Below, one piece after another: positions 7,438 to 24,085 of a stretch of DNA of 35,204 nt. Position 1 is the first letter of the stretch, and the number at the start of each line of letters is the position of its first letter. A model generated the notes under the pieces. That model did not search any database. It worked only from the letters and a program-made list of their open reading frames with translations, and was not told the DNA's origin. The translations under genes and the position numbers were made by a program. The stretch lies in contig CALMRC010000191.1 of assembly GCA_937873275.1 (NCBI GenBank), positions 1-35,204 of the forward strand. The letters run 5' to 3'. This DNA is from an uncultured Spirochaetota bacterium (GTDB lineage Bacteria > Spirochaetota > Spirochaetia > Treponematales > UBA12059).

Positions 7438-8816
7438 TCGTCCGGAACGGCTTATTGGCCCTGCGCCACGAGCGGGACTTCCTGCGCCGGGACTTCCGGG
7501 TCGGCCCGGACGGGCGCGTCGCGGAGATCTCGGAACGCCTGGCCCCGGAGCCCGGGGAGGAGGTCCTGGACGCACGGGGCCTTGAGGTCCTGCCCGGGGC
7601 GATCGATCCCCACGTCCACTTCGACGAGCCGGGCTTCACCCACCGGGAGGACTTCCTCCACGGAACCTCCGAGGCGGCCAAGGGCGGGGTGACCGCGGTA
7701 GTGGACATGCCCTGCACTTCCCTGCCCCCGGTCACCACCCGGGCGGCCCTGGAGAACAAGCTGGCCGTCGTGTCCAAGGCCGCGGTCGTCGACTACGCCT
7801 TCTTCGGGGGGGTGTCCGGCCATACCGCCGAGGAGAGCCTTGCGGAGCACATGGAGGCCCTGGCCCCGGACGTTGTCGGGTTCAAGACCTACTTCATCTC
7901 CGGGATGCGGACCTTCACCCGGGTCACCCACGACGACTTCGGCCGCATCGTGCGGCGCGGGGCGGCCCTGGGTCGGCCGATCCTCCTGCACGCCGAGGAC
8001 CTGGACTGCGTGACCGCCGCGGAGACCCGTCTGCGGAAGGCCCGGGGAACGGACGCCCCCCGGTGGAGCGACTACGTGGGTGCCCGGTCCGAGGACGCGG
8101 AGACCGTGGCCGCCGCCTCCGCCGCGGCCCTGGCCCGGGGGAACGAGGAGTGGCTCCACGTGGTCCACGTGGGCACGGCCGAGGCCGCGGAGCTCCTGGC
8201 CGCGGCGGGGGCCACCTGCGAGACCTGCGCCCACTACCTGGCCTTCTCCGCCGAGGACTTCGAGCGCCTGGGCTCCTCCCTCAAGACCGCCCCGCCGGTC
8301 AAAGCTCCGGGCCAGTCCGAGCGGCTCTGGGACCTTCTTTCGGGCGGGGCCATCTCCTTCGTGACCAGCGACCACGCCCCGGCCCCGGAGGAGGAAAAGA
8401 ACACCGGGAACCTCTGGACCGACTACGGGGGCATCCCCGGGACCGGGACCTGGGCCCCCTACCTCTACTCCGAGGGTCTCCTGGGCGGCCGCCTCTCCCT
8501 GGGCCGGTACCTGGAGGTCACTTCCGGGGCGGCCGCGGAGCGCTACGGCCTGTCCGAACGCAAGGGCTCCCTGGCGGTCGGAAAGGACGCGGACTTCGTC
8601 CTCGCGGACCCCGGGGGAACCACGGTCATCGAGGGGCGGACCCTCCTGTCCAAGGGGAAGATCACCGCCTTCGAGGGCTTGCGCCTGTCCGGCCGCTTCC
8701 TCGCGACCTATGTCCGGGGCCGCCTGGTGTACGACGCGGACCGGGCGGACCGAGACGAGCATCCGATTTGCGCCGCTCCGGGGAGCGGAAGATTCCTGCG
8801 TTGGGGGTACCGGTGA
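7434..8816 (+). CDS. hyuA: Cyclic amidohydrolase (dihydropyrimidinase/hydantoinase/allantoinase family)
   Basis: Metal-dependent hydrolase opening a cyclic amide, cytoplasmic. It has 460 residues, normal for the family. The binuclear metal site is visible: H60 and H62 (DPHVHF), the lysine carboxylated in this family at K151 (GFKTYF), H186 (LLHAED), H242 or H245 (LHVVHVG), and D313 in TSDHAP. The N-terminal HFDEPG resembles dihydroorotases and allantoinases more than D-hydantoinases. The C-terminal GSGRFLR resembles the E. coli HyuA end. The same family member occurs in the yge/ygf and gut urate clusters. I infer it opens a hydantoin- or imidazolone-like intermediate of urate. The exact substrate cannot be read from sequence. 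ATGA overlap with xdhB and GTGA overlap with ygfK. Confidence 0.85.
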   Translation: MIVRNGLLALRHERDFLRRDFRVGPDGRVAEISERLAPEPGEEVLDARGLEVLPGAIDPHVHFDEPGFTHREDFLHGTSEAAKGGVTAVVDMPCTSLPPVTTRAALENKLAVVSKAAVVDYAFFGGVSGHTAEESLAEHMEALAPDVVGFKTYFISGMRTFTRVTHDDFGRIVRRGAALGRPILLHAEDLDCVTAAETRLRKARGTDAPRWSDYVGARSEDAETVAAASAAALARGNEEWLHVVHVGTAEAAELLAAAGATCETCAHYLAFSAEDFERLGSSLKTAPPVKAPGQSERLWDLLSGGAISFVTSDHAPAPEEEKNTGNLWTDYGGIPGTGTWAPYLYSEGLLGGRLSLGRYLEVTSGAAAERYGLSERKGSLAVGKDADFVLADPGGTTVIEGRTLLSKGKITAFEGLRLSGRFLATYVRGRLVYDADRADRDEHPICAAPGSGRFLRWGYR

Positions 8817-11800
8817 GCACGAGCAAGGTGATGGATACCACGCCCATGGGGGCGCTGATCGGTCGGATGGCCGGGGAATACCGGGCCAAGAAGAGCGTCT
8901 ACGACATACCGGAAGCCCTCTTCCGGAAGGTCTTCCGGGACGAGCCGGCCTCCCCGGGCTTCGAGGTCCTGGGAAGCCGCATCCTCTATCCCGTCGGGCC
9001 CGCGGCGGGACCCCACACCCAGATCGCCCCGAACCTGGTCGCCTCCTACCTGGGGGGCTCCCGGATCTTCGAGCTCAAGACCGTCCAGGTGAACGACAAG
9101 CTCGAGATCGCCAAGCCCTGCATCGACGCCCTGGACGAGGGGCACAACGTGGAGTGGTCCACGGAGCTCTCCCTGGTCCAGGCCCGCGAGGAGTACCTGC
9201 GGGGCTTCCTGGCCCTCCACGTCCTCAAGGCCCTCTTCGCGGAGAGGGAGGCCGGAGGCTTCCTCTTCAACATGTCCGTGGGCTACACCCTGGACGGGAT
9301 CAAGAGTCCCGCGATGGACGCCTTCATCGAGGGCATGCGGGCCCCCGCCTCCACCCCCTTCTGGACCTCCGCCCTCGGGGAGCTCCGGGCCGCCGTCGCC
9401 TCCCCCGCCTTCCGCCGGGCCTTCGGGGCCGAGGGGGCCGCCCGGGCGGCCGCGGCCGTCGACGCCATGCCGACCGCGCCGGTCCACTCGGTTACCCTGT
9501 CCACCATGCACGGCTGCCCCCCCGCGGAGATCGAGCGGATCGGCCGCTACCTCATCGAGGACAAGGGCTTCTCCACCTACATCAAGCTGAACCCGACCCT
9601 CCTGGGCTACGACCGGGTCCGGGAGATCCTGGACCGGACCGGATGGACGGACGTCGAGATCAAGCGCCCGGGCTTCGAGCACGACCTGCAGTGGCCGGAC
9701 GCCCTGGCCCTGATCGCCTCCCTCTCCGCCGCGGCCAAGCGGAAGGGCGTGCGCTTCGGCCTCAAGCTCTCGAACACCCTGGCCAACGTGAACCCGGGCG
9801 GCCGCCTTCCCGGCGAGGAGAGGTACATGTCCGGCCGGGCCCTCTTCCCGATCACGGTCCGCCTGGCCGCGGACCTGGCCGCCGCGGTTCCCGAGCCCCT
9901 TTCCTTCTCCTTCTGCGGGGGCGTATCCGCCCTGAACGCCGCGGACTGCGTCCGGGCGGGCCTGGGACCCCTGACCGTGGCCACGGACATCCTCAAGCCC
10001 GGCGGCTACCTCCGCCTTTCGGACATGGCCCGCGCGGCCGTCTCCGCTCTGCCCTCGGCCCCGAAAAGCCCGGACGCCCGGGCCCTGGCGGCCCTGGCGG
10101 ACACCGCCCTCGCGCGACCCGAGTTCCGGGGGGACTGGAAGGAGGGCGAGGCGGCCATCGAGGCCCCCCTGCCCGCGTTCGACTGCTTCGACGCCCCCTG
10201 CGTCCGGGCCTGCCCGGTGAACCAGAAGGTCCCCGAGTACATCCGCCGGGCGGCCCGGGGCCGGGACGAGGAAGCCCTGGCCCTCATCCTGGCGGACAAT
10301 CCCCTGCCCTGGATCACCGGCACCCTCTGCGACCACGTCTGCCAGGAGGCCTGCTGCCGGAACGACTACGAGGGTCCCGTGGAGATCCGGGGGGTCAAGC
10401 TGGCCTGCGCCCGGGCCGCGGAGATTCCGCCTGCGCCCCGGGCCCGGAGGACGGACTTTCCCGGGAAGGCCGCGGTGATCGGCGCCGGGCCCGCGGGCCT
10501 GGCCTGCGCGTACTGGCTCGCCCGGGAGGGGGTCCCGGTCACGGTCTTCGAGAAGGCCGACTCCCCCGGAGGCGTGCCCGCCAACGTGATCCCCCGGTTC
10601 CGGATCCCCCGGAAGGACATCGAGCGGGACATCGAGCGCATCCGGTCGATGGGCGTGGAGTTCCGCTTCGGCTCCGCGGTCCGGGACCTGCCGTCCCTCC
10701 GGGCGGAGGGCTATTCGTCCGTATTCGTCGGAGCGGGCTCCCCGGCCCCCCGGGCCCTGCCCCTCTCGGGCTCCGGGGTCCGGGTGGTGGACGCCCTGGA
10801 CTTCCTGGCCGGGACCGCCGACGGCCCGGGGCCCTTCGCGGGGATCCGGCATGCGGTGGTGGCCGGGGGCGGGAACACCGCCATGGACGCCGTCCGGGCG
10901 GCCTCCCGCCTGCCCGGAATCCGGGAAGTGCGCCTTTCCTACCGTCGCACCGTCCGGGAGATGCCCGCCGACCGGGAGGAGCTCCACAACGCCCTCGCCG
11001 AGGCTTCCGCGGTGAACGCCGCGTCCGGCGGCGCGTCGCCCGCGGCGGTCCTGATGGAACTGACCCTGCCCGAGTCCGCGGCCCCCGGCAAGCTGACCCT
11101 GCGTCGCATGACCCTGGGCGAGCGGGACGACTCCGGCCGCCGCTCCCCGGTCGCCTCCGGGGATACCGTGGACGTGGCCTGCGACTTGGTGGTGGCCGCC
11201 GTCGGGGAGACCCCGGACCGGGCCTTCCTGGAGTCCCTGGGAATCCCGGTCGGCAAGGACGGCCGCCCGAAGGCGGACCCCGAGACCGGCTCCGTCGGCG
11301 TCCCGGGCCTCTACGTGGGCGGGGACGCCCTCCGGGGCCCGGCCTCCATCATCTCCGCCGTGGCGGACGGCCGGCGGAGCGCCGAGGCCATCCTACGGAC
11401 CGCGGGGATCGAGCCCGCCGGGGCCCGGGGATCCTACGCGCCCCCTGCCCCGGATCCGGAGAAACTCGCCCGCCGGGGTTCCCTGGCCGCGGACGCGGCG
11501 GGCCGGGAGGAGCTTCGGGTGCCCGAGGGCGCCGGGTCGCGGGCCTTCGCGGCCGCCCAGGCCGAGCGCTGCCTGGAGTGCGACGCGGCCTGTCTGCGCT
11601 GCGTGGAAGTCTGCCCCAACCGGGCCAACACCTTCGTGGCCGTACCGGCCGGCTCCGGCTTCTCCCAGGGCCTCCAGATCCTCCACGTGGACGCCCTGTG
11701 CAACGAGTGCGGCAACTGCGGCTTCTTCTGCCCCTGGCAGGGGGAACCCTACCGCGGGAAGCCCACGGTCTTCGCGTCCGCCGCAACCCTGGCGGCCTCC

Positions 11801-12004
11801 CGGAACGCGGGCTTCGCCTTCACCGGGACGGCCGGGGCCCCGGACCTTGTCCTCCGGGCGGAATACGAGGGCGAGGTCCGGACAGTGCCCCACGCCGAGT
11901 GGACCGGAGCGTCGGGCACCGCCGGCGCCGCGGCCCGGATGGCCGCCCTAGCCCGGATCGTGCACCGGGAACATCCCTACCTCGCGGGAGGCGACGCATG
12001 CTGA
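8813..12004 (+). CDS. ygfK: YgfK-type iron-sulfur flavo-oxidoreductase
   Basis: Large redox protein (1063 residues; E. coli YgfK about 1030), historically named a putative selenate reductase subunit and required in urate-degrading clusters. The N-terminal dihydroorotate-dehydrogenase-like barrel (about 1-400) has VGPAAGPHTQIAPN and TLSTMHGCPPAEIE. A GltD-like cysteine region begins at about 463 (CVRACPVN) and continues through TLCDHVCQEACC. Then come an FAD Rossmann motif (GAGPAG near 557), an NAD(P)H motif (GGGNTAMD near 683), and two C-terminal [4Fe-4S] motifs at about 920-936 and 962-975. The start is GTG 8813, overlapping the hyuA stop as GTGA with GGGGG just upstream. ATG 8831 is an alternative. 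Family and context suggest it passes electrons from NAD(P)H to a purine-derived intermediate, together with XdhD/YgfM. That coupling is inference. Confidence 0.92.
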   Translation: MSTSKVMDTTPMGALIGRMAGEYRAKKSVYDIPEALFRKVFRDEPASPGFEVLGSRILYPVGPAAGPHTQIAPNLVASYLGGSRIFELKTVQVNDKLEIAKPCIDALDEGHNVEWSTELSLVQAREEYLRGFLALHVLKALFAEREAGGFLFNMSVGYTLDGIKSPAMDAFIEGMRAPASTPFWTSALGELRAAVASPAFRRAFGAEGAARAAAAVDAMPTAPVHSVTLSTMHGCPPAEIERIGRYLIEDKGFSTYIKLNPTLLGYDRVREILDRTGWTDVEIKRPGFEHDLQWPDALALIASLSAAAKRKGVRFGLKLSNTLANVNPGGRLPGEERYMSGRALFPITVRLAADLAAAVPEPLSFSFCGGVSALNAADCVRAGLGPLTVATDILKPGGYLRLSDMARAAVSALPSAPKSPDARALAALADTALARPEFRGDWKEGEAAIEAPLPAFDCFDAPCVRACPVNQKVPEYIRRAARGRDEEALALILADNPLPWITGTLCDHVCQEACCRNDYEGPVEIRGVKLACARAAEIPPAPRARRTDFPGKAAVIGAGPAGLACAYWLAREGVPVTVFEKADSPGGVPANVIPRFRIPRKDIERDIERIRSMGVEFRFGSAVRDLPSLRAEGYSSVFVGAGSPAPRALPLSGSGVRVVDALDFLAGTADGPGPFAGIRHAVVAGGGNTAMDAVRAASRLPGIREVRLSYRRTVREMPADREELHNALAEASAVNAASGGASPAAVLMELTLPESAAPGKLTLRRMTLGERDDSGRRSPVASGDTVDVACDLVVAAVGETPDRAFLESLGIPVGKDGRPKADPETGSVGVPGLYVGGDALRGPASIISAVADGRRSAEAILRTAGIEPAGARGSYAPPAPDPEKLARRGSLAADAAGREELRVPEGAGSRAFAAAQAERCLECDAACLRCVEVCPNRANTFVAVPAGSGFSQGLQILHVDALCNECGNCGFFCPWQGEPYRGKPTVFASAATLAASRNAGFAFTGTAGAPDLVLRAEYEGEVRTVPHAEWTGASGTAGAAARMAALARIVHREHPYLAGGDAC

Positions 12005-13338
12005 TCTTCGAGAACGTCCGGGTGATCACCTGGAACCCCGCCGCGGTCTCGGAACCCCGGGACGTGGTCCTGCGGGAGCCCTCCGAGGGGGGCACGGTGG
12101 CGGAGGTCGGATCGAACCTGAAGGCCAAGTACCCCGCAGCCCGGGCCGGAGGCTCCGGGGGCTACCTCTCCCCCGGCCTCGTCTGCTCCCACACCCACCT
12201 CTACTCCGCCCTGGCCCGGGGCATCCTGGCGAACATCAAGCCCTCCAAGGACTTCGGGCAGATCCTTGCCCACCTCTGGTGGCGCCTGGACCGGGCCATC
12301 GACGAGCCGATCCTCCGGGCCAGCGCCCGGGCGGGCCTGGCGGACGCCGCGGCTTGCGGGGTCACCTCGGTGGTGGACCACCACGCCTCGCCGTCCTTCA
12401 TCGACGGGAGCCTGGACGTGATCCGGGCCGCCTACGACGAGATCGGCCTTCGGGGCCTTCTCTGCTACGAGACCACGGACCGGAACGGGCCGGAGGGGGC
12501 CCGGGCGGGGGTCCGGGAGAACGAACGCTTCGCCCGGGCGGTGGACGCCGGCAGGGCGGCCGGGAAAGCGCCCCGGGTGGAGGCCGCCATCGGGGGCCAC
12601 GCCCTCTTCACCATGGGGGACGAGACCCTGGAGCTCACCGCCCGGGCGGTCCGGTCCACGGGCCGGGGCTTCCACGTCCACGCCGCGGAGGACAAGTACG
12701 ACGCATCGGACTCCCGGCACCGCTACGGGGCGGACCTCGTGGAGCGGATGGAAAAGTTCGGGCTCCTGGGGCCGAAGACCATCGTGGGACACGGCCTTTG
12801 GCTCACCCCCTCGGAGGTGGAGCTCCTGAACGAGCGGGACTGCTTCCTGGCCCACAACGCCCGGAGCAACATGAACAACGCCGTGGGCTATGCGTCCCTC
12901 CTGCCCACCCTGAAGAACCCCGTCCTGGGGACCGACGGTATGGGGGCGGACATGGCGGAGGAGTTCAAGTTCGCCTACTTCCGCCACCGGGAGGCCGGGG
13001 GGCCCTGGTGGCCCGGCGACTTCCTGGGGGTCCTTGACCGGGGCAACCGTCTCATGGAACGATATATGGCTGGAACGCGCTTCGGCCGCGTCGAGGCGGG
13101 GGTTCCCGCGGACCTGGTCCACTGGGACTACGACCCGCCCACCCCCCTCTCCGCGGAGAACCTGGCGGGCCACCTGGCCTTCGGGCTCTCAAGCCGGAGC
13201 GTTCGAAGCGTCCTTTCGGACGGGGCCTTCGTCGTCCGGGACCGGATTCCCTCCTTCGACGCGGAGGGGATCGCCGCGGACGGCCGCGTCCAGGCCGCCC
13301 GGCTATGGAAGCGGATGGACGAATTAAAAACGGTTTGA
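11998..13338 (+). CDS. ssnA: SsnA-type aminohydrolase
   Basis: Amidohydrolase-superfamily deaminase-like enzyme, 446 residues (E. coli SsnA 442). The metal and catalytic residues are H65 and H67 (CSHTHLY), H226/H228 (FHVHAAED) with E231, H265 (VGHGLW) and D313 (GTDGMG). NARSNMNN is the family's substrate loop. GGGAGG lies 6 nt before the ATG, and the start overlaps the end of ygfK by 7 nt. SsnA always travels with YgfK, YgeY and YgeW in purine clusters. Its reaction there is a hydrolytic deamination or ring cleavage of an intermediate, not settled by sequence. It ends the first tightly coupled block: 8 bp after its stop begins the inverted-arm repeat element A. Confidence 0.92.
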   Translation: MLIFENVRVITWNPAAVSEPRDVVLREPSEGGTVAEVGSNLKAKYPAARAGGSGGYLSPGLVCSHTHLYSALARGILANIKPSKDFGQILAHLWWRLDRAIDEPILRASARAGLADAAACGVTSVVDHHASPSFIDGSLDVIRAAYDEIGLRGLLCYETTDRNGPEGARAGVRENERFARAVDAGRAAGKAPRVEAAIGGHALFTMGDETLELTARAVRSTGRGFHVHAAEDKYDASDSRHRYGADLVERMEKFGLLGPKTIVGHGLWLTPSEVELLNERDCFLAHNARSNMNNAVGYASLLPTLKNPVLGTDGMGADMAEEFKFAYFRHREAGGPWWPGDFLGVLDRGNRLMERYMAGTRFGRVEAGVPADLVHWDYDPPTPLSAENLAGHLAFGLSSRSVRSVLSDGAFVVRDRIPSFDAEGIAADGRVQAARLWKRMDELKTV

Positions 13339-13345
13339 TGAATGA

Positions 13346-13630: not shown

Positions 13631-13661
13631 GTCCGTCCCCGCGATTCGGGCGGGAACGGAC
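13631..13661 (+). promoter_or_regulatory. Leader hairpin upstream of ygeY, terminator-like
   Basis: GTCCGTCCCCGC (13631-13642) pairs with GCGGGAACGGAC (13650-13661) in 11 of 12 positions around a 7-nt loop. The pyrimidine-rich GTTGTTCTCTTCC follows directly. It may act as a weak intrinsic terminator or attenuator for transcripts arriving from ssnA. The U tract is interrupted, so termination is uncertain. Confidence 0.4.
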
Positions 13662-13720
13662 GTTGTTCTCTTCCCCCCGCGCGGCGACTCGGGCCGTACG
13701 GGGCAGGACATGGGGGTTGT

Positions 13721-14935
13721 ATGGATTCGAACGCCCAAAAGGTCCGCGCCAAGGCCTCGTCCTACCGGGACGAGACCGCGGACATCCTGTCCCGGATCAT
13801 CCAGGTACCGGCCCTGAGCGCCAAGGAAGCCGAGCGCATCGCCCTCTTGAAGTCGATGTGCGAGAAGGCCGGCTTCGACGAGGTCAAGGTGGACGGCCTG
13901 GGGAACCTCCTGGCCCGGGTGGGCTCGGGGAAGAAGATCCTGGCCGTCGACGCCCACATCGACACCGTGGACACCGGCGACCCGGCCCAGTGGAAGACCC
14001 CGCCCTTCTCGGGACTCGTGAAGGACGGCCTCGTGCACGGCCGGGGCGCCTCGGATCAGCTGGGCGGGGCGGCCTCCATGATCACCGCCGGCCGCATCCT
14101 CAAGGAGCTCGGCTACGCCGGGGACTACACGGTCTGGTTCGCCTTCACGATCATGGAGGAGGACTGCGACGGCCTCTGCTGGAAATACCTGATCGAGGAG
14201 GAGAAGCTCGTCCCGGACCTCTTCGTGTCCACCGAGCCCACCTCCCTCCGGCTCTATCGGGGCCACCGGGGCCGCATGGAGATCGAGTGCCGCTTCCAGG
14301 GCGTATCCTGCCACGGCTCCGCCCCGGAGCGCGGGAAGAGCGCGGCCTACATGGCCTCCCGCGCGGCCCTGGCGATCGAGAAGCTCAACGAGGGCCTTAA
14401 GCCCGACGCGGAGAATTTCCTGGGCAAGGGCACCGTCACGGTGAGCCGGATGGACGTCAAGGGTCCCTCCCTCTGCGCCGTCCCGGACCAGGGCATGATC
14501 TACCTGGACCGCCGCCTCACCTGGGGCGAGACCAAGGAGCTGGCGGTTGAACAGGTCAAGAAGGCCCTCTCCGAGGCCGGGCTTTCCAACTTCGAGGTGA
14601 AGGTACCCTACTACGAGATCCCCTCCTGGAAGGGCACCAAGTACGGCCAGGACCTCTACTTCCCGACCTGGAAGATCGACGCGGACCACGCCCTGGTCCG
14701 GGCCGGGGTAGCCGCCCACAAGGCCCTCTGGGGCTCCGAACCCGTGGTGGACAAGTGGACCTTCTCCACGAACGGCGTGGCCGTGTGCGGCCGCCACAAG
14801 ATCCCGACCATCGGCTTCGGGCCCGGGGACGAGAACCAGGCCCACGCCCCCAACGAGATCACCCGGGTGGACGACCTGGAGAAGGCCGCGGCCTTCTACG
14901 CGACCCTGCCCTACGCCTTGGAAGGGAACCTCTAA
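13721..14935 (+). CDS. ygeY: YgeY-type M20 metallohydrolase
   Basis: Zinc-type M20 peptidase/deacylase family member, 404 residues (E. coli YgeY 403). Metal-site motifs are H79 (AVDAHIDTVD), D112 (GRGASDQLGG), the catalytic and metal glutamates E146/E147 (IMEEDCDG), E172 (STEPT), and a late His in NQAHAPNE. H198 in SCHGSAPERG belongs to the dimerisation/active-site loop. YgeY is annotated as a selenium-metabolism-linked hydrolase and is required in urate clusters, where it probably cleaves an acyclic amide intermediate (inference). The start is ATG 13721, with GGGGG 4 nt upstream; longer in-frame readings extend only into poorly coding leader. Its TAATAA end is followed after 1 nt by the strong AGGAGG site of the next gene. 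Confidence 0.92.
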   Translation: MDSNAQKVRAKASSYRDETADILSRIIQVPALSAKEAERIALLKSMCEKAGFDEVKVDGLGNLLARVGSGKKILAVDAHIDTVDTGDPAQWKTPPFSGLVKDGLVHGRGASDQLGGAASMITAGRILKELGYAGDYTVWFAFTIMEEDCDGLCWKYLIEEEKLVPDLFVSTEPTSLRLYRGHRGRMEIECRFQGVSCHGSAPERGKSAAYMASRAALAIEKLNEGLKPDAENFLGKGTVTVSRMDVKGPSLCAVPDQGMIYLDRRLTWGETKELAVEQVKKALSEAGLSNFEVKVPYYEIPSWKGTKYGQDLYFPTWKIDADHALVRAGVAAHKALWGSEPVVDKWTFSTNGVAVCGRHKIPTIGFGPGDENQAHAPNEITRVDDLEKAAAFYATLPYALEGNL

Positions 14936-14949: not shown

Positions 14950-16110
14950 ATGCGATGGTTCTACCGGTGCCCGACCTGCGGCGCCGAGTACGAGATGGAA
15001 CCGGACCGCTACCTCTGCTCCTCCTGCGCCCCCAAGACGCTCCCGGACCGCCCCCTGGAGGGGGTGCTGGAGTGCGCCTGGGAGGGCGCGTGGGAGGGGG
15101 ACGACCGCTCGGTGCCGCTCCCCGTGGAGCCCGAGTGGTTCCCCCCCGTGCCCGTGGGGGACACCCCCCTCTGGGCGCCGGAGCGGCTGCGCGGGGACAC
15201 CGGGTTCCCGAGTCTCTGGATCAAGGACGACACCTGCCAGCCCACGGGGTCCTTCAAGGACCGGGCAAGCTTCCTGGTGGCCGCCTACGCACGCAAGAAA
15301 GGCATCCGGGAGATCGCCCTGGCCTCCACGGGCAACGCGGCTTCCTCCATGGCGGGCATCGGGGCGGCGGCGGGCCTTCGGATCACGGTCTTCCTGCCCA
15401 AGGCGGCTCCCGCGGCCAAGCGGATCCAGGTCCTCCAATACGGGGCGGAACTTAAGGCGGTGGACGGCACCTACGACCAGGCCTTCGACGAGTCCCTGGC
15501 CTACACCAAGGCCACGGGGACCCTGTCCCGGAACACCGCCTACAATCCCCTGACCATCGAGGGCAAGAAGACGGTCTCCTTCGAGATCCTCGCGGACCTG
15601 ACCGCCCGGGGAGCTCCGACGCCGGACCACGTCTTCGTGCCGACGGGGGACGGGGTGATCCTGGCGGGGGTCTACAAGGGCTTCGAGGACCTCGTCCGCC
15701 TGGGACGGCTCTCCAAGGTGCCCGTGGTCTGGGCCTGCCAAGCCAAGGGGTCCAGCGCCCTCGCCCGGGCCCTGGAGGCGGGGGGCTTCGGGGATCCCGA
15801 GCCTTCCTCCACGATCGCGGACTCCATCTCCGTGGACGTGCCCCGGAACGGAACCCTGGCCCTGGCCAAGCTGAAAAAGCACGGAGGCCGGGCGGTGGTG
15901 GTGACGGACGAGGAGATCCTCGGGGCCCAGCGGACCCTGGCGGGACGGACCGGCCTCTTCGCCGAACCGTCCTCCAGCGCCGCCCTGTCGGGATTCTTGA
16001 AGGTCAAGGGAGGGCTGGACCCGTCGTCGACGGTGGTCCTCCTGGTCACGGGCAACGGGCTCAAGGACGTGAAGAGCGCGGCCCATGGTCTGGGAATCAG
16101 TGAACGGTAA
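14950..16110 (+). CDS. Threonine-synthase-like PLP enzyme with N-terminal zinc ribbon
   Basis: Fold-type-II PLP enzyme of 386 residues. A zinc-ribbon start has C7, C10, C23 and C26. The PLP lysine is K103 in PTGSFKDRA. STGNAASS is the substrate loop and PTGDGV (where threonine synthases have PTGNFG) is the phosphate-binding loop. The C-terminal LLVTGNGLKD also matches threonine synthases. TAAGGAGGAG lies 5 nt before the ATG, so it should be strongly translated. In related clusters this position is held by diaminopropionate ammonia-lyase YgeX. I infer that this enzyme, or the next, eliminates ammonia from a diaminopropionate-like product. A plain threonine synthase is the alternative, but no threonine genes are nearby. 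The last codons and the stop fall inside repeat element B. Confidence 0.82.
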   Translation: MRWFYRCPTCGAEYEMEPDRYLCSSCAPKTLPDRPLEGVLECAWEGAWEGDDRSVPLPVEPEWFPPVPVGDTPLWAPERLRGDTGFPSLWIKDDTCQPTGSFKDRASFLVAAYARKKGIREIALASTGNAASSMAGIGAAAGLRITVFLPKAAPAAKRIQVLQYGAELKAVDGTYDQAFDESLAYTKATGTLSRNTAYNPLTIEGKKTVSFEILADLTARGAPTPDHVFVPTGDGVILAGVYKGFEDLVRLGRLSKVPVVWACQAKGSSALARALEAGGFGDPEPSSTIADSISVDVPRNGTLALAKLKKHGGRAVVVTDEEILGAQRTLAGRTGLFAEPSSSAALSGFLKVKGGLDPSSTVVLLVTGNGLKDVKSAAHGLGISER

Positions 16111-16227
16111 ACGGTGGACAGAAACGGCGGCGGCAGGCGGAAGATGACCGCGGTTCGGCGTGAAATGCGGCCGCGGCTCCGTCAACACTGCCGTCCACAG
16201 TTCACCGTCCACCGTCCACCGTCCACT
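16099..16227. repeat. Inverted-arm element B built from 7-nt tandem units (PLP1/PLP2 spacer)
   Basis: The left arm (16099-16121) contains GTGAACG, GTAAACG, GTGGACA. The right arm (16192-16227) contains, on the opposite strand, GTGGACG three times, then GTGAACT and GTGGACG. The outer 23 nt of the arms pair at 19 positions. The middle is GC-rich with two CCGCGG palindromes. It begins within the last four codons of the upstream gene and supplies its stop codon. Confidence 0.78.
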
Positions 16228-16242
16228 TAAAAGGAGTTACCC

Positions 16243-17706
16243 ATGAAGATCGATCTTTCCATCCACGAGTCCCAGCGGAAGAAGAACATACAGCGGTGCA
16301 AGGAGAAGGGCATCCTCCTGCCGACCTACGCCCAGATGCGGGATCCCGCGAAGATCCCCGAGTCCATCAAGTCCGAGCTCAAGGGCATCGGGCTCTGGGA
16401 CGTCCACTCCCGCAACCTATTCCGGGTCAACTGGCACAACGAGCCCAAGGAGAAGGGCGGGGTCTTCGGGGACGTAAACTACTTCGAACTCCCCCGGGAG
16501 CTCACGGGCACCAAGGCCCGGATCGGCGCGGTCCTCGGCAAGTGGTTCCCCACGGGGGCCCACAAGGTCGGCGCGGCCTATTCCTGCCTGGTTCCCGGCC
16601 TGGTGACCGGGCAGTTCGACCCGACCACCAAGAAGGCCGTGTGGCCCTCCACGGGCAACTATTGCCGGGGCGGGGCCTACATCTCCCGCCTCCTGTCCTG
16701 CCCCTCCGTGGCCATCCTCCCCGCGGAGATGTCCCGGGAGCGCTTCGAGTGGCTGGCGACCATGGCCGAGGAGGTCATCGCCACCCCGGGCTGCGAGAGC
16801 AACGTCAAGGAGATCTTCGACAAGTGCGTCGAGATCGAGAAGACCCGGCCGGACGCGGTGATCTTCAACCAGTTCGACCAGCTCCCCAACCACCTCTGGC
16901 ACTACACCGTCACGGGCCCCGCCCTGGAGGAGGTCTTCGGGAAGATGAATCCCGACGGGAAGTCCCGCCTGGCCCTCTCCCTGTACAGTTCCGGGTCCGC
17001 GGGCACCCTGGGCGCGGGCTCCTACCTCAAAGAAAAGCACAACGGCGCCCGGGTGGGCGTGGGCGAGGCCCTGCAGTGCCCCACCATCCTGGAGAACGGC
17101 TTCGGAGGCCACCGGATCGAGGGGATCGGGGACAAGCACATCCCCTGGATCCACAATCTCCGGGACACCGACGTGGCGGTGGGCGTGGACGACGAGATCG
17201 CCGTCCGCCTCCTGCGGCTGTTCAACGAGCCCGCGGGCCGCAAGGCCCTGGTCGAGGCCGGGGTGCCCAAGGCGGCGGTGGACCGGCTCGACCTCCTCGG
17301 GATCTCCGGGATCGGAAACCTCGTGGCCACCATCAAGGCCGCCAAGTACTACGAACTCGGAGAGGACGAGATCGCCCTCACGGTCTTTACGGATTCCCTC
17401 CAGCTCTACGGTTCCCGGCTCACGGAGCTCGCCGCGGAGCGGGGCGCCTACGACCAGCGCCAGGCGGACCGGGACATCGAAATGCTCCGGAACCTCTCGG
17501 TGGACCACGTCCTGGACATGACCCACGTGGATCGCCGGAGGGTGCACCAGCTCAAGTACTACACCTGGATCGAGCAGCTCGGGAAGGAACTTTCGGAGCT
17601 GAACGCCCAGTGGGACGACTGGCGCGGCTACTGGGGCGAGCTCCACGCCGAGGTCGGGACCCTGGACGCCCTGATCGAGGACTTCAACAAGGAGGTCCTG
17701 CGGTGA
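16243..17706 (+). CDS. Second PLP-dependent lyase-like enzyme (tryptophan-synthase-beta fold)
   Basis: Fold-type-II PLP protein, 487 residues. The probable Schiff-base lysine is K108 in PTGAHKVGAAY. STGNY (136-140) is the substrate loop and LYSSGSAGTLGAGSYL looks like the cofactor-phosphate glycine loop. The C-terminal about 150 residues extend beyond the core fold. It is longer than cysteine synthases and DAP ammonia-lyases. The GAHK motif recalls tryptophan synthase beta and TrpB-like lyases. AAGGAG lies 7 nt before ATG 16243. It starts the third coupled block, and its stop overlaps the GTG start of the deaminase. Context suggests a role in deaminating an amino-acid product of urate breakdown. 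The substrate is unknown. Confidence 0.8.
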   Translation: MKIDLSIHESQRKKNIQRCKEKGILLPTYAQMRDPAKIPESIKSELKGIGLWDVHSRNLFRVNWHNEPKEKGGVFGDVNYFELPRELTGTKARIGAVLGKWFPTGAHKVGAAYSCLVPGLVTGQFDPTTKKAVWPSTGNYCRGGAYISRLLSCPSVAILPAEMSRERFEWLATMAEEVIATPGCESNVKEIFDKCVEIEKTRPDAVIFNQFDQLPNHLWHYTVTGPALEEVFGKMNPDGKSRLALSLYSSGSAGTLGAGSYLKEKHNGARVGVGEALQCPTILENGFGGHRIEGIGDKHIPWIHNLRDTDVAVGVDDEIAVRLLRLFNEPAGRKALVEAGVPKAAVDRLDLLGISGIGNLVATIKAAKYYELGEDEIALTVFTDSLQLYGSRLTELAAERGAYDQRQADRDIEMLRNLSVDHVLDMTHVDRRRVHQLKYYTWIEQLGKELSELNAQWDDWRGYWGELHAEVGTLDALIEDFNKEVLR

Positions 17707-19082
17707 TCGTCCTCAAGGACTGCCTCTGCATAGTTCGCCCGCCGGGAAGCCCCGGCGGCAACCTCTCGGGGGCGGACATCCACATCGACGGGAACCGGAT
17801 CGTCCGGGTGGGCAGGAACCCGCCCGTGCCCGAGGGGGCGCGGGTGATCGACGCCTCCCGCCACGTGGTCACCCCGGGCCTGGTGAACACCCACCACCAC
17901 TTCTACCAGACCCTGACCCGGAACCTCCCGGCGGTGCAGAACGCCAAGCTCTTCGACTGGCTTCTGTACCTCTACGAGGTCTGGAAGGGGATCGACGAGG
18001 AGGCGGTCTACTGGTCCAGCCGCCTGGCCCTGGCGGAGCTCGTGAAGACGGGCTGCACCTGCACCACGGACCATCACTACCTCTACCCTCAGGGCTTCTC
18101 GGAGGACCTTCCGGGCATCCAGTTCCAGGCCGCCGCGGACATCGGGGTTCGATTCGCCCCGACCCGGGGCTCCATGAGCCGGTCCAAGAAGGACGGGGGC
18201 CTGCCCCCGGACTCGGTGGTCCAGGACGAGGACACGATCCTGGCCCAGTGCGAGCAGACGATCCGGACGTACCACGACCCCGCCCCGGACTCCATGCGCC
18301 GGGTGGCCCTGGCCCCCTGCAGCCCCTTCTCGGTCTCCGAACAGCTCATGAAGGACTCCGCCGTCCTGGCCCGGAAGCACGGCGCCCGCCTGCACACCCA
18401 CCTGGCCGAGACCGGGGACGAGGACGACTACTGCGTGAAGATCTACGGCCGCCGCCCCTTGAAGGTCATGGAGGACTGCGGCTTCCTGGGTCCCGACGTC
18501 TGGTACGCCCACGGGATCCACTTCAACGACCAGGAACTCGACGTGCTGGCCCGGACCGGGACCGGGGTGGCCCATTGTCCCTCCTCGAACATGCGTCTCG
18601 GGAGCGGGATCGCCCGGGTCCGGGAGATGCTGGACCGGGGGGTGAACGTGGGCCTGGCGGTGGACGGATCGGCCTCCAACGACGCCTCGGACATGCTGGG
18701 CGAGATGCGGCAGGCCCTCCTGCTCCAGCGGGTGCGCTACGGCTCCGCGGGCATCACCGCCGCCGAGGTCTACGGCATCGCCACCGAGGGCGGGGCCCGG
18801 ATCCTGGGCTGGGACAAGCTGGGGCGGATCGAGGAAGGCTGGCTCGCGGACATCGCCCTCTTCGACGTGCAGAAGATGGAATACGCCGGGGCCCTCTCGG
18901 ACCCGGCGGCGGCCCTCCTCTTCTCGGGCTACGACCACGGGGCGGACTACGTCTTCGTGAACGGCAAGGCCGCGGTGGTCCAGGGCCGGCTGGTCGGGGA
19001 GGACGAGGAAGAGATACGGGACAACGCGAACCGTATAGCCGCCAAGCTCTACGCGAAAGCGGGGGTGGACGGATGGTCGTGA
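17703..19082 (+). CDS. 8-oxoguanine deaminase
   Basis: Amidohydrolase that deaminates 8-oxoguanine to urate, cytoplasmic, 459 residues. Diagnostic motifs are NTHHHFYQTLTR (H64 and H66 metal ligands), LHTHLAE (H233, E236), WYAHGIHF (H270, H273), CPSSNMRL and DGSASNDAS (D321). These match the Pseudomonas aeruginosa PA0142-type enzyme closely as I remember it. The hydroxyatrazine hydrolase AtzB is a more distant relative. The start is GTG 17703, overlapping the upstream stop as GTGA, with AAGGAGGT 6 nt before it. Its product is urate, the presumed substrate of the surrounding pathway, so it links oxidised-guanine salvage to urate catabolism. Its end overlaps ygfM. Confidence 0.9.
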   Translation: MIVLKDCLCIVRPPGSPGGNLSGADIHIDGNRIVRVGRNPPVPEGARVIDASRHVVTPGLVNTHHHFYQTLTRNLPAVQNAKLFDWLLYLYEVWKGIDEEAVYWSSRLALAELVKTGCTCTTDHHYLYPQGFSEDLPGIQFQAAADIGVRFAPTRGSMSRSKKDGGLPPDSVVQDEDTILAQCEQTIRTYHDPAPDSMRRVALAPCSPFSVSEQLMKDSAVLARKHGARLHTHLAETGDEDDYCVKIYGRRPLKVMEDCGFLGPDVWYAHGIHFNDQELDVLARTGTGVAHCPSSNMRLGSGIARVREMLDRGVNVGLAVDGSASNDASDMLGEMRQALLLQRVRYGSAGITAAEVYGIATEGGARILGWDKLGRIEEGWLADIALFDVQKMEYAGALSDPAAALLFSGYDHGADYVFVNGKAAVVQGRLVGEDEEEIRDNANRIAAKLYAKAGVDGWS

Positions 19083-19873
19083 AATACATACGCGCGGCCT
19101 CGCTGGACGAGGCCGATCGGGTCCTCGAGTCGGACAAGCGGGCGCGGATCCTGGCGGGGGGCACCCAGCTCCTGACCAGCGAATTCCGGGACTTCCCGTT
19201 CGTGGCGGTCGACGCGGGTCCCCTCCTGCCCCGAGGCCTCGAACGGTCCCCGGACGGGCTTGTACGCATCGGCGCGGGGGCGACCTTCCAGGACCTGGCG
19301 GACAGTGCCGTCACGCCGCGGATCCTTTCCGACGCGGCCCGGGGCATGGCCAACCGCAACGTCCGGAACGCCGCCACCGTCGGGGGAAACCTGGGAGCCG
19401 CCCGCTCCTGCTCCTCCCTGGTCCCGGCCCTCCTGGTGCTGGACGCCCGGGTACGGATCCACGGCGCGGCGGAAACCCGGCCCTTGGAGGACTGGCTGGC
19501 CGCGCCCTCGGGCATCGTGACCTATGTCGAGATTCCCGCGGCCCCGGGGCTCCGGTCGGCTTACGCCCGATGGTCCCGCACGGCCTGCGACCTCTCGGTC
19601 CTGACCTGCGCAGCAAGCTACCGTCTGCAGGACGGTAGCTTGCGAGACCTGCGGATCGCCTGCGGGGGCCTGGACGCCAAGAGCCGCCGCTTCCCCGAGC
19701 TGGAGCGCCTCTTCGAGGGCCGGCCCCTGCCCGGACGGGACGAGGCGGCCGCTCAAATCGCGCCGGCGCTCAAGCCGATCGACGACCTCCGGGGGAGCGC
19801 GGCTTTCAAGCGGCTGCGCGCCTCGGAGCTCGCCGCCGAGGCCCTGCTGGCCGCCCGGGAGGTAAGCCGATGA
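19073..19873 (+). CDS. ygfM: FAD-binding subunit of the second molybdenum hydroxylase
   Basis: CO-dehydrogenase-type flavoprotein subunit, 266 residues (E. coli YgfM 259). The FAD motifs are LAGGTQLL near 28-35 and NRNVRNAATVGGNLGAA near 93-110. It would pass electrons between NAD(P)H and the iron-sulfur centres of XdhD, encoded directly downstream. ATG 19073 overlaps the deaminase gene by 10 nt, and its own stop overlaps the xdhD start as ATGA. An unusual perfect inverted repeat (19613-19643) lies inside the coding sequence, encoding SYRLQDGSL with codons that are rare in this window. Confidence 0.88.
   Translation: MVVKYIRAASLDEADRVLESDKRARILAGGTQLLTSEFRDFPFVAVDAGPLLPRGLERSPDGLVRIGAGATFQDLADSAVTPRILSDAARGMANRNVRNAATVGGNLGAARSCSSLVPALLVLDARVRIHGAAETRPLEDWLAAPSGIVTYVEIPAAPGLRSAYARWSRTACDLSVLTCAASYRLQDGSLRDLRIACGGLDAKSRRFPELERLFEGRPLPGRDEAAAQIAPALKPIDDLRGSAAFKRLRASELAAEALLAAREVSR
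19613..19643. repeat. Perfect 13-bp inverted repeat embedded in ygfM
   Basis: GCAAGCTACCGTC (19613-19625) and GACGGTAGCTTGC (19631-19643) are perfect inverted copies around TGCAG. The reading frame is kept. Codons GCA, CGT, GGT, TTG and CGA cluster here but are uncommon in the flanking genes. It resembles a small palindromic element that has settled in frame inside a gene. Confidence 0.8.
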
Positions 19874-22737
19874 CCGTCACCTTCAAGCTCAACGGCCGTA
19901 CCGTCTCCTGGGACTGCCCCGAGGGGGAAAGCCTCAAGGCCGCCCTGCGGCGCCGGGGCGTCATCTCCGTACGGGACGGCTGCAACGGGGAAGGCTCCTG
20001 CGGCCTGTGCGCCGTGATCCTGGACGGCCGTACCGTGAACTCCTGCACCCTCCTGGCCGCCCAGGCCGAGGGCCGGGAGATCCACACCGTCGAACACTTC
20101 TCCAAGGACCGGAAGCTCTCGGTGGTGCAGAGGGCCCTGATCGACGCGGCCTGCGTCCAGTGCGGCTACTGCACCCCCGCGGTGGTCCTGGCGGTGCACT
20201 CCCTCCTGGAGCGCTCCCCGGAGCCCACGAAGGAGGAGGTGAAGGACGCCCTCTCGGGCACCCTCTGCCGCTGCACGGGGTACGAGCAGTTCCACAACGC
20301 GGTGCGGATCGCCTCGAGGCGCCTGAAGGACCCGGGGTACGCGGAGGCCGCGGCCCCGGAGTTCCGGCCGGACCTCCGCCACGTGGGCAAGGACCGGGAG
20401 AAGGTGGACGCCGCCGCCCTGGCCCGGGGGGAGAAGGCCTTCGTGGAGGACCGGGTGGAGGCGGACGCCTGCCATCTGGCCCTCCTGACCAGCCCCCACG
20501 CCCACGCCTGGATCAAACGGATCGACGCGTCCAAGGCCCGGGAGCTGCCCGGGGTCGTGGCGGTCCTCACCCACGAGAACTGCCCGGACCGGGTCTACAC
20601 GACCGCGGGGCAGGGATTCCCGGAGCCCTCGCCCCACGACCAGAGGATGTTCTCCCGGAAGGTCCGCCACGTGGGGGACCGGGTGGCCGCGGTCCTGGCG
20701 GAGACCCCCGACCAGGCCCGGGCGGCCCTCAAGGCCTTGGTGGTGGAGTACGAGGTCCTCGCGCCCGTGCTCTCCATCGCCGAGGCCAAGGCCCCCGGCG
20801 CACCGACGGTCCACTCCGGGGAGGTCCGCTACGTCTCCGGGGAAGCCCCCGCGGGCACCACAACCGAGGGGGACGGCCGGGACGACCCGATCGTCTACCA
20901 GTTCCCCCTGCACGCGGATCCGCACCGCAACCTGGCGGCCAGCGTGGCCGACGGCATCGGAGATATCGAGAAGGGTTTCGCGGAAGCGGACGTGGTCATC
21001 GAGCGGACCTACAAGGGCAATCGGGTGCAGTGCACCCCGATGGAGCCCCACGTGGTCTACGCCAAGGTCGACGGGGGTCGTCTGGTCCTCCACGCCTCCA
21101 CCCAGGTGCCCTGGCACGTGCGCCGCATCGTCTCCCGGGCTATCGGGATCCCCGAGAACAAGGTCCGGGTGATCAAGGAGCGGGTGGGCGGAGGCTTCGG
21201 GGCCAAGCAGGACATCGTCCTGGAGGACGTGGCGGGCTACCTGGCCTGGACCACGGGCCGGCCCGTCTTCTTCCGGTACGACCGTGAGCAGGAGTTCGTC
21301 TCCAGCCGGACCCGGCACCTGATGGAGATCACCGTGAGGCTGGGCGCCAAGAAGGACGGACGGCTCACCGCGGTGCTCATGAAGGTGGACGCCGACACGG
21401 GCCCCTACGGCCAGCACTGCCTGACGGTGCCCATGAACGCCGTGTCCAAGAGCCTGCCCCTGGTGCTCTGCGACAACGCCCGGTTCGAGGTGAAGAGCTA
21501 TTACACGAACCTCTCCCCCGCCGGGGCCTACCAGGGCTACGGGGCCCCCAAGGGTTCCTTCGCCCTCCAGACCGCCCTGGCGGAGCTCGCGGCGGAGCTC
21601 GGGATGGACCAGCTCGACCTGATCGAGCGCAACCGGGTCCGCTCCGGAAGCCGCATCGAGATCCTGCGGAGCCTGGGCGAGGGCCGGCCCGGCGCCGCGG
21701 TGACCCTGGGCGAGTGCGGCCTGGGCGAGATGATCGGGCGCGGCCGGAAGGCCTTCGGCTGGGACGGCGCCAAGCCGTCTTCGGAGGACCCCGACTGGAA
21801 GGTCGGCCGCGGCGCGGTGATCGTACAACAGGGCTCGGGCCTTCCGGGCCTGGACGCCGCCAACGCGGAGGTCCGCCTCCTGGCGGACGGCACGGTCCTC
21901 CTGCTCTCCGGCGGGGCCGACCTGGGCACGGGCCTGGACACGGTGACCGCCAAGGCCGCCGCGGAGATCCTGGGCCTGGACATGGAGGACGTGGCGGTCA
22001 TCTCCGGGGACACCGACGTGACCCCCTTCGACAAGGGGGCGTACGCCTCCAGCGGGACCTACTTCTCCGGGAACGCCGCGGTCAAGGCCGCCCAGGACCT
22101 GCGAGCCAAGATCCTGGCCGCGGCCTCGGCCGTGCTCGGGGAGCCCGCATCGGACCTCTCCATCGTCCACCGGGGCATCGTCCGCGGGAAGAAGGGGGAG
22201 GTCACCCTGGCCAAGCTCGCCCACATGAGCACCCAGGGGGAGCACCACGGAGACCTGGTCGGCATCGGGGGCTTCAAGACCGAGCACGCGGCCTTCCCCT
22301 ACGGGGCCCACTTCGCGGAGGTGGCGGTCAACGTCCGCACCGGGGACGTGAAGCTCCGGCGCTTCCACGCCTACCAGGACTGCGGAACCCCGATCAACCC
22401 CGCCCTCGCGCTGGGCCAGATCTACGGGGGGATCCTCAAGGCCGTGGGGCATTCCCTCTACGAGGAGATGCTCTACGACAAGGACGGGCGCTGCGTGAAC
22501 CCGCGGTTCCTGGATTACAAGATACCCACGATCTGGGAGGTCCCCGAGGACTTCCACGTGGAGCTCGTTCCCGTGGCGGACGAGGTGGGACCCTTCGGGG
22601 GGAAGAGCGTTTCCGAGATCTCCCTGAACGGGGCCGCCCCCGCCATCTCCATCGCCATCCACGACGCCGTCGGCGTATGGATGCGCGAGTGGCCCTTCAC
22701 CCCCGAGCGAATCCTGAAGGCTCTGGGGAAGATCTAA
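19870..22737 (+). CDS. xdhD: XdhD-type molybdenum hydroxylase, fused [2Fe-2S] and Mo domains
   Basis: Second molybdenum hydroxylase, 955 residues (E. coli XdhD 956). An N-terminal plant-type [2Fe-2S] domain has C38, C44, C47 and C59. The helical [2Fe-2S] domain has C98, C101, C133 and C135. The molybdopterin-binding domain fills the rest. The residue matching bovine Glu802 is Q447 (GGGFGAKQD). The Arg880 position is Q555 (GAYQGYGAP). The catalytic Glu is kept as E916 in GKSVSEISL. The substrate pocket therefore differs from that of XdhB. This family includes the selenium-dependent molybdenum hydroxylases; the selenium is a labile ligand, so no Sec codon is expected and none is seen. GGAGGT lies 6 nt before ATG. 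It likely acts with YgfM and perhaps YgfK on urate or a derivative. Confidence 0.92.
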   Translation: MTVTFKLNGRTVSWDCPEGESLKAALRRRGVISVRDGCNGEGSCGLCAVILDGRTVNSCTLLAAQAEGREIHTVEHFSKDRKLSVVQRALIDAACVQCGYCTPAVVLAVHSLLERSPEPTKEEVKDALSGTLCRCTGYEQFHNAVRIASRRLKDPGYAEAAAPEFRPDLRHVGKDREKVDAAALARGEKAFVEDRVEADACHLALLTSPHAHAWIKRIDASKARELPGVVAVLTHENCPDRVYTTAGQGFPEPSPHDQRMFSRKVRHVGDRVAAVLAETPDQARAALKALVVEYEVLAPVLSIAEAKAPGAPTVHSGEVRYVSGEAPAGTTTEGDGRDDPIVYQFPLHADPHRNLAASVADGIGDIEKGFAEADVVIERTYKGNRVQCTPMEPHVVYAKVDGGRLVLHASTQVPWHVRRIVSRAIGIPENKVRVIKERVGGGFGAKQDIVLEDVAGYLAWTTGRPVFFRYDREQEFVSSRTRHLMEITVRLGAKKDGRLTAVLMKVDADTGPYGQHCLTVPMNAVSKSLPLVLCDNARFEVKSYYTNLSPAGAYQGYGAPKGSFALQTALAELAAELGMDQLDLIERNRVRSGSRIEILRSLGEGRPGAAVTLGECGLGEMIGRGRKAFGWDGAKPSSEDPDWKVGRGAVIVQQGSGLPGLDAANAEVRLLADGTVLLLSGGADLGTGLDTVTAKAAAEILGLDMEDVAVISGDTDVTPFDKGAYASSGTYFSGNAAVKAAQDLRAKILAAASAVLGEPASDLSIVHRGIVRGKKGEVTLAKLAHMSTQGEHHGDLVGIGGFKTEHAAFPYGAHFAEVAVNVRTGDVKLRRFHAYQDCGTPINPALALGQIYGGILKAVGHSLYEEMLYDKDGRCVNPRFLDYKIPTIWEVPEDFHVELVPVADEVGPFGGKSVSEISLNGAAPAISIAIHDAVGVWMREWPFTPERILKALGKI

Positions 22738-22891: not shown

Positions 22892-24085
22892 ATGAACCTG
22901 AACGAAATTCGCGCGCGCATCGAGACCCTGAAGAACCGCAAGATCGGCATGTACCGCAAGGACTTCCTCCTGACCTGGGAGAAGACCCGGGACGAGATCG
23001 ACGCCACCTTCGACGTGGCGGACATCCTCCGGGGCCTGCGGGATCTCGGCATCTCCCCCCGGGTCTGGGACTCCGGCATCGCGGTGTCCAACTTCCGGGA
23101 CAACTCCACCCGCACCCGATTCTCCTACTCCTCCGCCTGCGACCTCCTGGGCCTGTACGTCCAGGACCTGGACGAGGGCAAGAGCCAGATCGCCCACGGG
23201 GAGACCGTGCGGGAGACCGCCAACATGATCTCCTTCCTGACCGAGGCCGTCGGCATCCGGGACGACATGTACCTGGGCGAGGGCGACAAGTACCAGCGGG
23301 AGGTCGGCAAGGCCCTGGACGACGGAGTGGCCGCGGGGGTCCTCCCGGACCGCCCGACGGTGGTGAACCTCCAGAGCGACATCGACCACCCCACCCAGTC
23401 CATGGCGGACTTCCTCCACCTGGCCCACCACTTCGGCGGCCTCGACAAGCTCAAGGGCAAGAAGATCGCCATGACCTGGGCCTACTCCCCCTCCTACGGC
23501 AAGCCCCTCTCGGTGCCCCAGGGGATCATCGGCCTGGCCAGCCGCTTCGGCATGGACATCACCCTGGCCCACCCCGAGGGCTACGACCTCATCCCCGAAG
23601 TGGTGGAGCTGTCCAAGAAGCAGGCCGCCGCGTCCGGCGGCTCCTTCAAGCACGTCAACTCCATGGACGAGGCCTTCAAGAACGCGGATATCGTCTATCC
23701 CAAGAGCTGGGCCCCCTACGACGTCATGCTGAAGCGCGTCCCCCTCCTGCACGCCGGGGACCAGGCGGGCCTCAAGGACCTGGAGAAGGTCTGCCTGGCG
23801 AACAACGCCAAGTTCCAGGACTGGGAGTGCACGGAGCAGAAGATGAAGCTGACCGCCGGGGGCAAGGCCCTGTACATGCACTGCCTGCCCGCGGACATCA
23901 CGGACGTCTCCTGCAAGGCCGGCGAGGTGGCCGCCAGCGTCTTCGACCGGTACCGGGACGACACCTACCGGGAGGCCTCCTGGAAGCCCTACATCATCGC
24001 CGCCATGATCCTGCTCGGGAAGTTCCAGGATCCCGCCAAGGTCCTGGCGGGCCTGGTGGAGCGGAACAGGAAGCGGGTCGGTTAA
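22892..24085 (+). CDS. ygeW: YgeW knotted carbamoyltransferase
   Basis: Trefoil-knotted transcarbamylase, 397 residues (E. coli YgeW 396). The carbamoyl-phosphate motif is STRTR (72-76). HPTQ (166-169) and HCLPADITD (replacing HCLP of ornithine transcarbamylase) complete the family pattern. In catabolic clusters it is thought to run phosphorolytically, yielding carbamoyl phosphate for carbamate kinase and ATP. The natural amine substrate in E. coli is unknown, and a ureido derivative of diaminopropionate is a reasonable guess. TAGGAGGA lies 7 nt before ATG 22892. It is the last gene of the array and is followed 18 bp later by a strong terminator. No carbamate kinase is visible in the window. 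Confidence 0.93.
   Translation: MNLNEIRARIETLKNRKIGMYRKDFLLTWEKTRDEIDATFDVADILRGLRDLGISPRVWDSGIAVSNFRDNSTRTRFSYSSACDLLGLYVQDLDEGKSQIAHGETVRETANMISFLTEAVGIRDDMYLGEGDKYQREVGKALDDGVAAGVLPDRPTVVNLQSDIDHPTQSMADFLHLAHHFGGLDKLKGKKIAMTWAYSPSYGKPLSVPQGIIGLASRFGMDITLAHPEGYDLIPEVVELSKKQAAASGGSFKHVNSMDEAFKNADIVYPKSWAPYDVMLKRVPLLHAGDQAGLKDLEKVCLANNAKFQDWECTEQKMKLTAGGKALYMHCLPADITDVSCKAGEVAASVFDRYRDDTYREASWKPYIIAAMILLGKFQDPAKVLAGLVERNRKRVG

Follow-up and report, generated by a model that had tools for sequence, protein, structure and literature searches.

The 35,204-nucleotide contig CALMRC010000191.1 of an uncultured Spirochaetota bacterium (assembly GCA_937873275.1), here called the window, carries a near-complete cluster of genes for the reductive breakdown of uric acid, comprising XdhD, YgfM, YgfK, SsnA, HyuA, YgeY and YgeW (Table 1). 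Within it, two co-oriented genes for fold-type-II pyridoxal 5'-phosphate (PLP) enzymes, PLP1 and PLP2, lie between ygeY and a gene for an 8-oxoguanine deaminase. In the published route, urate is converted to yanthine by XdhD, dearomatised by YgfK and ring-opened by SsnA and HyuA; both ureido groups are then removed by YgeW and YgeY, and 2,3-diaminopropionate (DAP) is turned into pyruvate by YgeX (PMC12507026; PMC12990295). Among these enzymes, YgeX alone is absent from the gene set of the window. SsnA, YgfK, YgeY and YgeW all score above their curated cut-offs and are accompanied by an XdhD homologue, a gene set that identifies a reductive uric-acid cluster. The uric-acid clusters of E. coli, C. 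difficile and C. sporogenes (PMC12507026; PMC12990295) have XdhD-YgfM, YgfK, SsnA, a HyuA-type protein, YgeW and YgeY in common with the window; however, PLP1 and PLP2 stand here instead of YgeX, with the 8-oxoguanine deaminase gene adjoining. A preliminary description of this DNA had placed two different fold-type-II enzymes where YgeX is expected. Both open reading frames are indeed intact, each follows a good Shine-Dalgarno sequence, and both products exceed the PF00291 cut-off of 35 bits (241.6 bits for PLP1 and 44.3 bits for PLP2).

PLP1 is a protein of 386 residues, encoded from an ATG to a TAA codon with AAGGAGGA just 5' of the start. As first described, it contains an N-terminal zinc ribbon, the lysine motif GSFK103DR and a PTGDGV segment, and Cys7, Cys10 and Cys23 of the ribbon as well as K103 are invariant among 32 relatives. 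The AlphaFold (AF2) model is confident (predicted local distance difference test, pLDDT, 93.8), and its nearest fold in the PDB, as found by Foldseek, is that of threonine synthase (best match 6nmx), with serine racemase also among the matches. The likeness to threonine synthase (ThrC) of the Thermus/Bacillus type covers the fold (TM-score by target 0.81-0.84), the SFK103DR lysine and the TGNGLKD segment. PLP1 differs, however, in having GDG at the position of the VGNAGN loop of Thermus-type ThrC, in an invariant ADS motif of its own, and in the loss of the Arg of the NPxR motif, which we take to be the phosphate-binding residue of threonine synthase. ThrC rows of both the Thermus and the E. 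coli type have this Arg, while in all 18 PLP1 rows it is replaced by Thr, Met or Leu (Thr202 in the window). The scores of PLP1 also fall below the threonine synthase equivalog cut-offs (PRK08197, 192.8 of 303 bits; TIGR00260, 137.3 of 167.1 bits). In an IQ-TREE phylogeny of 53 rows that included threonine synthases and DAP ammonia-lyases, the 18 PLP1 rows form a clade of their own (support 100/99), located beside the threonine synthases and apart from YgeX. A role of PLP1 as the threonine synthase of the cell was ruled out, since a separate E. coli-type ThrC is encoded in the genome and the signature residues differ.

PLP2 is a protein of 487 residues preceded by AAAGGAG, and its lysine motif, FPTGAHK108VG (in an alignment of 38 sequences), is of the GAHK type noted in the preliminary description. 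It also carries an STGNYCRGG loop and CysK-like HRIEGIG and TDS segments. The AF2 model is again confident (pLDDT 89.3), and the nearest PDB folds by Foldseek are those of CysK and cystathionine beta-synthase (CBS). PLP2 has both the CysK fold and the GIG motif: it shares with these enzymes the fold of the catalytic core (TM-score by target ca. 0.7-0.8), the GIG motif and the N1-Ser region, but is only ca. 25% identical to them, has the TGAHK lysine motif and the STGNYCRGG loop, and is extended by ca. 80 N-terminal and ca. 100 C-terminal residues. Its scores are far below the respective cut-offs (TIGR01139 for cysK, 68.8 of 350.95 bits; TIGR01137 for CBS, 51.5 of 510 bits), and no close relative was found among solved structures, the best match being CysK at 72 bits. 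In the tree, PLP2 forms a clade towards the cysteine synthases; its branch is very long, and its exact place is therefore unsure. By its sequence, PLP2 is a deep CysK/CBS-like subfamily. The possibility of PLP2 being a distant YgeX was also considered and rejected, the profile match being partial and weak (45% probability). Relatives of ca. 42% identity are found on Rhizobium and Bosea plasmids (positions 9944-11443 of locus L120 and 10070-11404 of locus L121), where their neighbours are TauE/SafE exporters and M20 hydrolases, and in Bosea also RidA; perhaps they represent a related lyase with a different substrate. With 42% identity and mixed neighbours, they were not decisive as a clue to the function of PLP2.

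The whole genome, which is 97% complete, was searched with the YgeX profile TIGR01747 (cut-off 274 bits). No YgeX was found elsewhere in it; the sole match was PLP1 itself, at 21.7 bits, and PLP2 gave no match. The genome encodes seven PF00291 proteins, of which the other five are, by sequence, an E. coli-type ThrC (39% identity to the E. coli protein), an IlvA/serine-dehydratase-like protein, CysK (59%), TrpB and a second TrpB-type protein. What the two proteins have in common with E. coli YgeX is the place in the pathway cluster beside YgeY, membership in the PF00291 superfamily and, for PLP1, a profile alignment that spans the whole protein (E 5.5e-21). They differ from it in falling below TIGR01747, in being encoded by two genes rather than one, in the zinc ribbon of PLP1 and in a key loop residue. 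The TDGNHG loop of YgeX contains an Asp (D120 in the E. coli enzyme) that presumably acts as the base on the D isomer. All six YgeX-like proteins compared have this Asp, and Thr takes its place in both PLP1 (STGNAA) and PLP2 (STGNYC).

Relatives of PLP2 were confirmed at no fewer than 585 places in GTDB genomes, with identities of 57-92% for the best 80. Synteny of PLP1 with PLP2 extends over many groups, and synteny with ureido and purine genes is maintained as well; chance open reading frames are thus excluded. Fifty genomes were taken from the PLP2 search, with breadth preferred and partly from loci already seen to have PLP1 nearby. They represent more than ten named groups, including Spirochaetota, betaproteobacteria, Chloroflexota, Halanaerobiales, Acidobacteriota, Bipolaricaulota, Atribacterota, Neomarinimicrobiota, Bdellovibrionales, SAR324 and others, and many are metagenome bins. 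PLP1 (E below 1e-95) is present in 49 of the 50, an SsnA homologue in 39 (26 of them above the cut-off), YgeY above its cut-off in 31, and YgeX in 3. Among the betaproteobacteria, an Accumulibacter genome (locus L049) has YgeY and YgeW (83% and 85% identity to E. coli, respectively) close to PLP1-PLP2, and YgeX was not found in that genome.

A second sample was picked by YgeY and consisted of 46 Spirochaetota genomes above the YgeY cut-off. YgeX only was found in 21, PLP2 only in 10, both in 13 and neither in 2, counts that are not phylogenetically independent, as most of the YgeX-only genomes belong to one family. PLP1 (E below 1e-100) accompanies PLP2 in 21 of 23 genomes and is found in just 1 of the 23 genomes that lack PLP2, while YgeX is found in 21 of the latter. 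In 25 further PLP2-positive relatives, YgeX was seen twice. Of the 13 genomes with both systems, 7 have the PLP genes less than 10 kb from ygeY on a shared contig, and 1 has YgeX so placed. Loci L124 and L128, for example, are clusters with PLP1, PLP2, YgfK, SsnA and YgeY, with the YgeX homologue on other contigs (L123 and L129). In genome G312, YgeX and PLP1-PLP2 share one contig; a single operon was ruled out there because unrelated genes lie between them.

Four betaproteobacterial loci (L048, L050, L051 and L052) contain an operon that encodes a HyuC-type M20 carbamoylase, an N-carbamoyl-D-amino-acid hydrolase, PLP1, PLP2 and, directly after PLP2, an L-serine ammonia-lyase (SdaA). When one member of each family was tested, the M20 carbamoylase scored 403 bits with TIGR01879 (cut-off 204), the L-serine ammonia-lyase 416 bits with TIGR00720 (cut-off 345), and the N-carbamoyl-D-amino-acid hydrolase 414-453 bits against solved structures of that name (452.9 bits to 8i99). 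In L052 the operon is preceded by a xanthine dehydrogenase, an N-terminal YgfK domain and a D-hydantoinase (TIGR02033, 574 bits, cut-off 393). The YgfK-type protein of this Comamonadaceae locus (positions 1792-3864, 691 residues) covers positions 1-398 of the profile and no more, and is thus a shortened YgfK. In the simplest reading, the two carbamoylases do the jobs that YgeW and YgeY have elsewhere. The combination of carbamoylase, N-carbamoyl-D-amino-acid hydrolase and serine dehydratase suggests an intermediate with a D-configured alpha carbon, and perhaps L-serine as an intermediate.

Gene content, the absence of YgeX, the near-obligate pairing, the separate phylogeny and the loss of both ThrC and YgeX signature residues are the basis for our reading that PLP1 and PLP2 probably replace YgeX jointly at the DAP end of a variant reductive uric-acid pathway. 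The earlier suggestion is supported in part. Its idea of a YgeX replacement holds up: YgeX is missing from the genome, PLP1 is no ordinary threonine synthase, another ThrC is present, and the pair follows the pathway in genomes that mostly lack YgeX. Comparative evidence supports the pair well as an alternative to YgeX, whereas its chemistry is proposed here: the substrate, the sequence of reactions, the assignment of each reaction to an enzyme and the product are inferred. PLP1 and PLP2 would be the last dedicated enzymes of the pathway and would clear the DAP, probably of D configuration, that is left by YgeW and YgeY. PLP1 would form an external aldimine with DAP via K103 and expel the beta-amino group, and PLP2, with its CysK/CBS scaffold and K108, would carry out an obligatory companion step, a substitution or elimination whose substrate would be the first product or the opposite enantiomer. 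The end product would be pyruvate, formed directly or via L-serine that is deaminated by an Fe-S L-serine dehydratase.

Several observations weigh against this reading. The presence of both YgeX and PLP2 in 13 of the 46 spirochaete genomes means that the replacement is not absolute, and 10 of 41 loci with at least 19 kb of sequence have no purine or ureido marker near PLP2. The linked serine dehydratase was seen only in the four betaproteobacterial loci and is not beside PLP2 in L046, L047 or L049. Finally, genomes G066 and G078 encode a divergent YgeX (34-36% identity to E. coli) together with PLP2 and have no PLP1, so the role of PLP2 may not be tied to DAP, and YgeX and PLP1 may be exchangeable with PLP2 being separate. 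These two genomes favour the view that PLP1 alone replaces YgeX and that PLP2 serves another step or substrate, as do the alignment with YgeX, which is end to end for PLP1 and partial for PLP2, and the plasmid-borne PLP2 relatives near transport, M20 and TauE/SafE genes. Such a division would, however, leave the coupling of the two genes hard to explain, with PLP1 accompanying PLP2 in all but one of the fifty genomes and nearly missing from the YgeY-positive spirochaetes without PLP2, and we regard it as rather unlikely. Far less credible still is the chance presence of ordinary threonine synthase and cysteine synthase genes in the cluster. The best NCBIfam names of the two proteins are those of these enzymes, and the folds agree; but all scores are below the equivalog cut-offs, both proteins sit in separate deep clades, the NPxR Arg of ThrC is Thr202 in PLP1, ThrC and CysK are encoded elsewhere in the genome, and the two genes keep their synteny with ureido and purine genes.

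Joint replacement of YgeX can also be put in a sharper form, in which PLP1 and/or PLP2 would exchange the beta-amino group of DAP for a hydroxyl group to give L-serine, which the Fe-S L-serine dehydratase would convert to pyruvate. Threonine synthase adds water at C-beta, and CysK and CBS catalyse beta-replacement. This form is possible, albeit tentative: the TIGR00720 gene next to PLP2 in the four betaproteobacterial operons, the CysK-type HRIEGIG and TDS motifs kept in PLP2 and two SDH_alpha genes elsewhere in the genome of the window argue for it, while SdaA is unlinked to the pair in the examined loci of other groups and in three of the seven betaproteobacterial loci. The same four operons favour, by way of serine, the earlier proposal that the two enzymes act in sequence. 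In a rival reading, which we consider somewhat doubtful, the work would be divided by enantiomer: L-DAP would be the substrate of an ammonia-lyase, the second protein would be a racemase of DAP or an enzyme for D-DAP, and together they would cover both isomers used by YgeX. According to PMC12507026, HyuA is D-specific, and YgeX acts on both the L and the D form. The alpha carbon in the pathway is probably D, as indicated by this specificity of HyuA and by the betaproteobacterial N-carbamoyl-D-amino-acid hydrolase; the Thr in place of the YgeX loop Asp in both proteins and the serine racemase among the fold matches of PLP1 also speak for a division by enantiomer. However, no racemase-specific signature was found in PLP1 or PLP2, and a division by enantiomer leaves the serine dehydratase of the betaproteobacterial operon unexplained.

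Table 1. Genes of the purine and ureido cluster in the window.
Feature	Position	Strand	Evidence
Xanthine dehydrogenase small (Fe-S/FAD) subunit	3812..5224	+	TIGR02963 321.6 bits, below cut-off
Xanthine dehydrogenase molybdopterin subunit	5221..7437	+	TIGR02965 705.7 bits, below cut-off
HyuA/allantoinase-type cyclic amidohydrolase	7434..8816	+	TIGR03178 (Allantoinase) 312 bits, below cut-off 358; 28% identity to E. coli HyuA
YgfK (yanthine reductase)	8900..12004, start approximate	+	TIGR03315 1015 bits, cut-off 835
SsnA (ring-opening aminohydrolase)	12004..13338	+	TIGR03314 479 bits, cut-off 455.5
YgeY (ureido hydrolase of the reductive uric-acid pathway), directly 5' of PLP1	13718..14935	+	TIGR03526 477.2 bits, cut-off 321.5
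PLP1, threonine-synthase-like fold-type-II PLP enzyme, N-terminal zinc ribbon, K103	14950..16110	+	PF00291
PLP2, CysK/CBS-like fold-type-II PLP enzyme, TGAHK, K108	16243..17706	+	PF00291
8-oxoguanine deaminase-like amidohydrolase, overlaps PLP2 stop	17706..19082	+	PRK08203 606.7 bits, cut-off 532
YgfM-like FAD subunit	19070..19873, start approximate	+	PF00941 and PF03450; 32% identity to E. coli YgfM
XdhD (urate reductase)	19870..22737	+	52.5% identity to E. coli XdhD over 961 columns
YgeW knotted carbamoyltransferase	22892..24085	+	TIGR03316 655 bits, cut-off 500; 67% identity to E. coli YgeW

The 8-oxoguanine deaminase-type gene adjoins PLP2 in nearly all spirochaete loci. Its overlap with the PLP2 stop codon in the window and its conserved place beside PLP2 suggest that 8-oxoguanine feeds into the urate pathway. 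The window also contains two separate xanthine dehydrogenase-type sets, an XdhA/B-like one at 3812-7437 and an XdhD/YgfM-like one at 19070-22737, one possibly for the production of urate and the other for its reduction. No carbamate kinase (YqeA), which would use the carbamoyl phosphate from YgeW, was found in the window, to which the search for it was limited. A chemoreceptor-like gene on the minus strand (1324-3657), with a membrane sensor and a methyl-accepting-type region recognised by eye, is reversed within the purine cluster, and short tandem-like repeats, with CCGTCCAC and TCCTGTC units, occur in the intergenic segments 16111-16242 and 13338-13718. In five Anaerolineae loci (L077, L091, L100, L103 and L116), inspection by eye showed a transporter set resembling a BMP-type ABC importer, flanked by carbamate kinase and PLP1; PLP2 is followed there by a conserved protein of ca. 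184 residues.

In openly licensed papers we found no description of the PLP1-PLP2 pair or of its catabolic step. The neighbourhood survey in PMC12507026 (Fig. 3g) marked YgeX by the superfamily PF00291. Since PLP1 and PLP2 both exceed the cut-off of that family, the marking of YgeX probably merges two different chemistries and counted the variant as YgeX. The reductive uric-acid pathway was first reported in 2025 and is relevant to gout and to gut nitrogen. Its stereochemistry was named as an open question in PMC12990295, and the betaproteobacterial version with the N-carbamoyl-D-amino-acid hydrolase bears on this question. It is conceivable, although we hold it with little confidence, that anaerobic uric-acid breakdown has a second widespread ending, in which two new PLP families, instead of YgeX, convert (D-)diaminopropionate to L-serine, or handle its enantiomers separately, in Spirochaetota, Chloroflexota, Halanaerobiales, Acidobacteriota, Bipolaricaulota and some betaproteobacteria. 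Should the pair prove to be a genuine alternative to YgeX, two large uncharacterised PLP families would gain a testable function.

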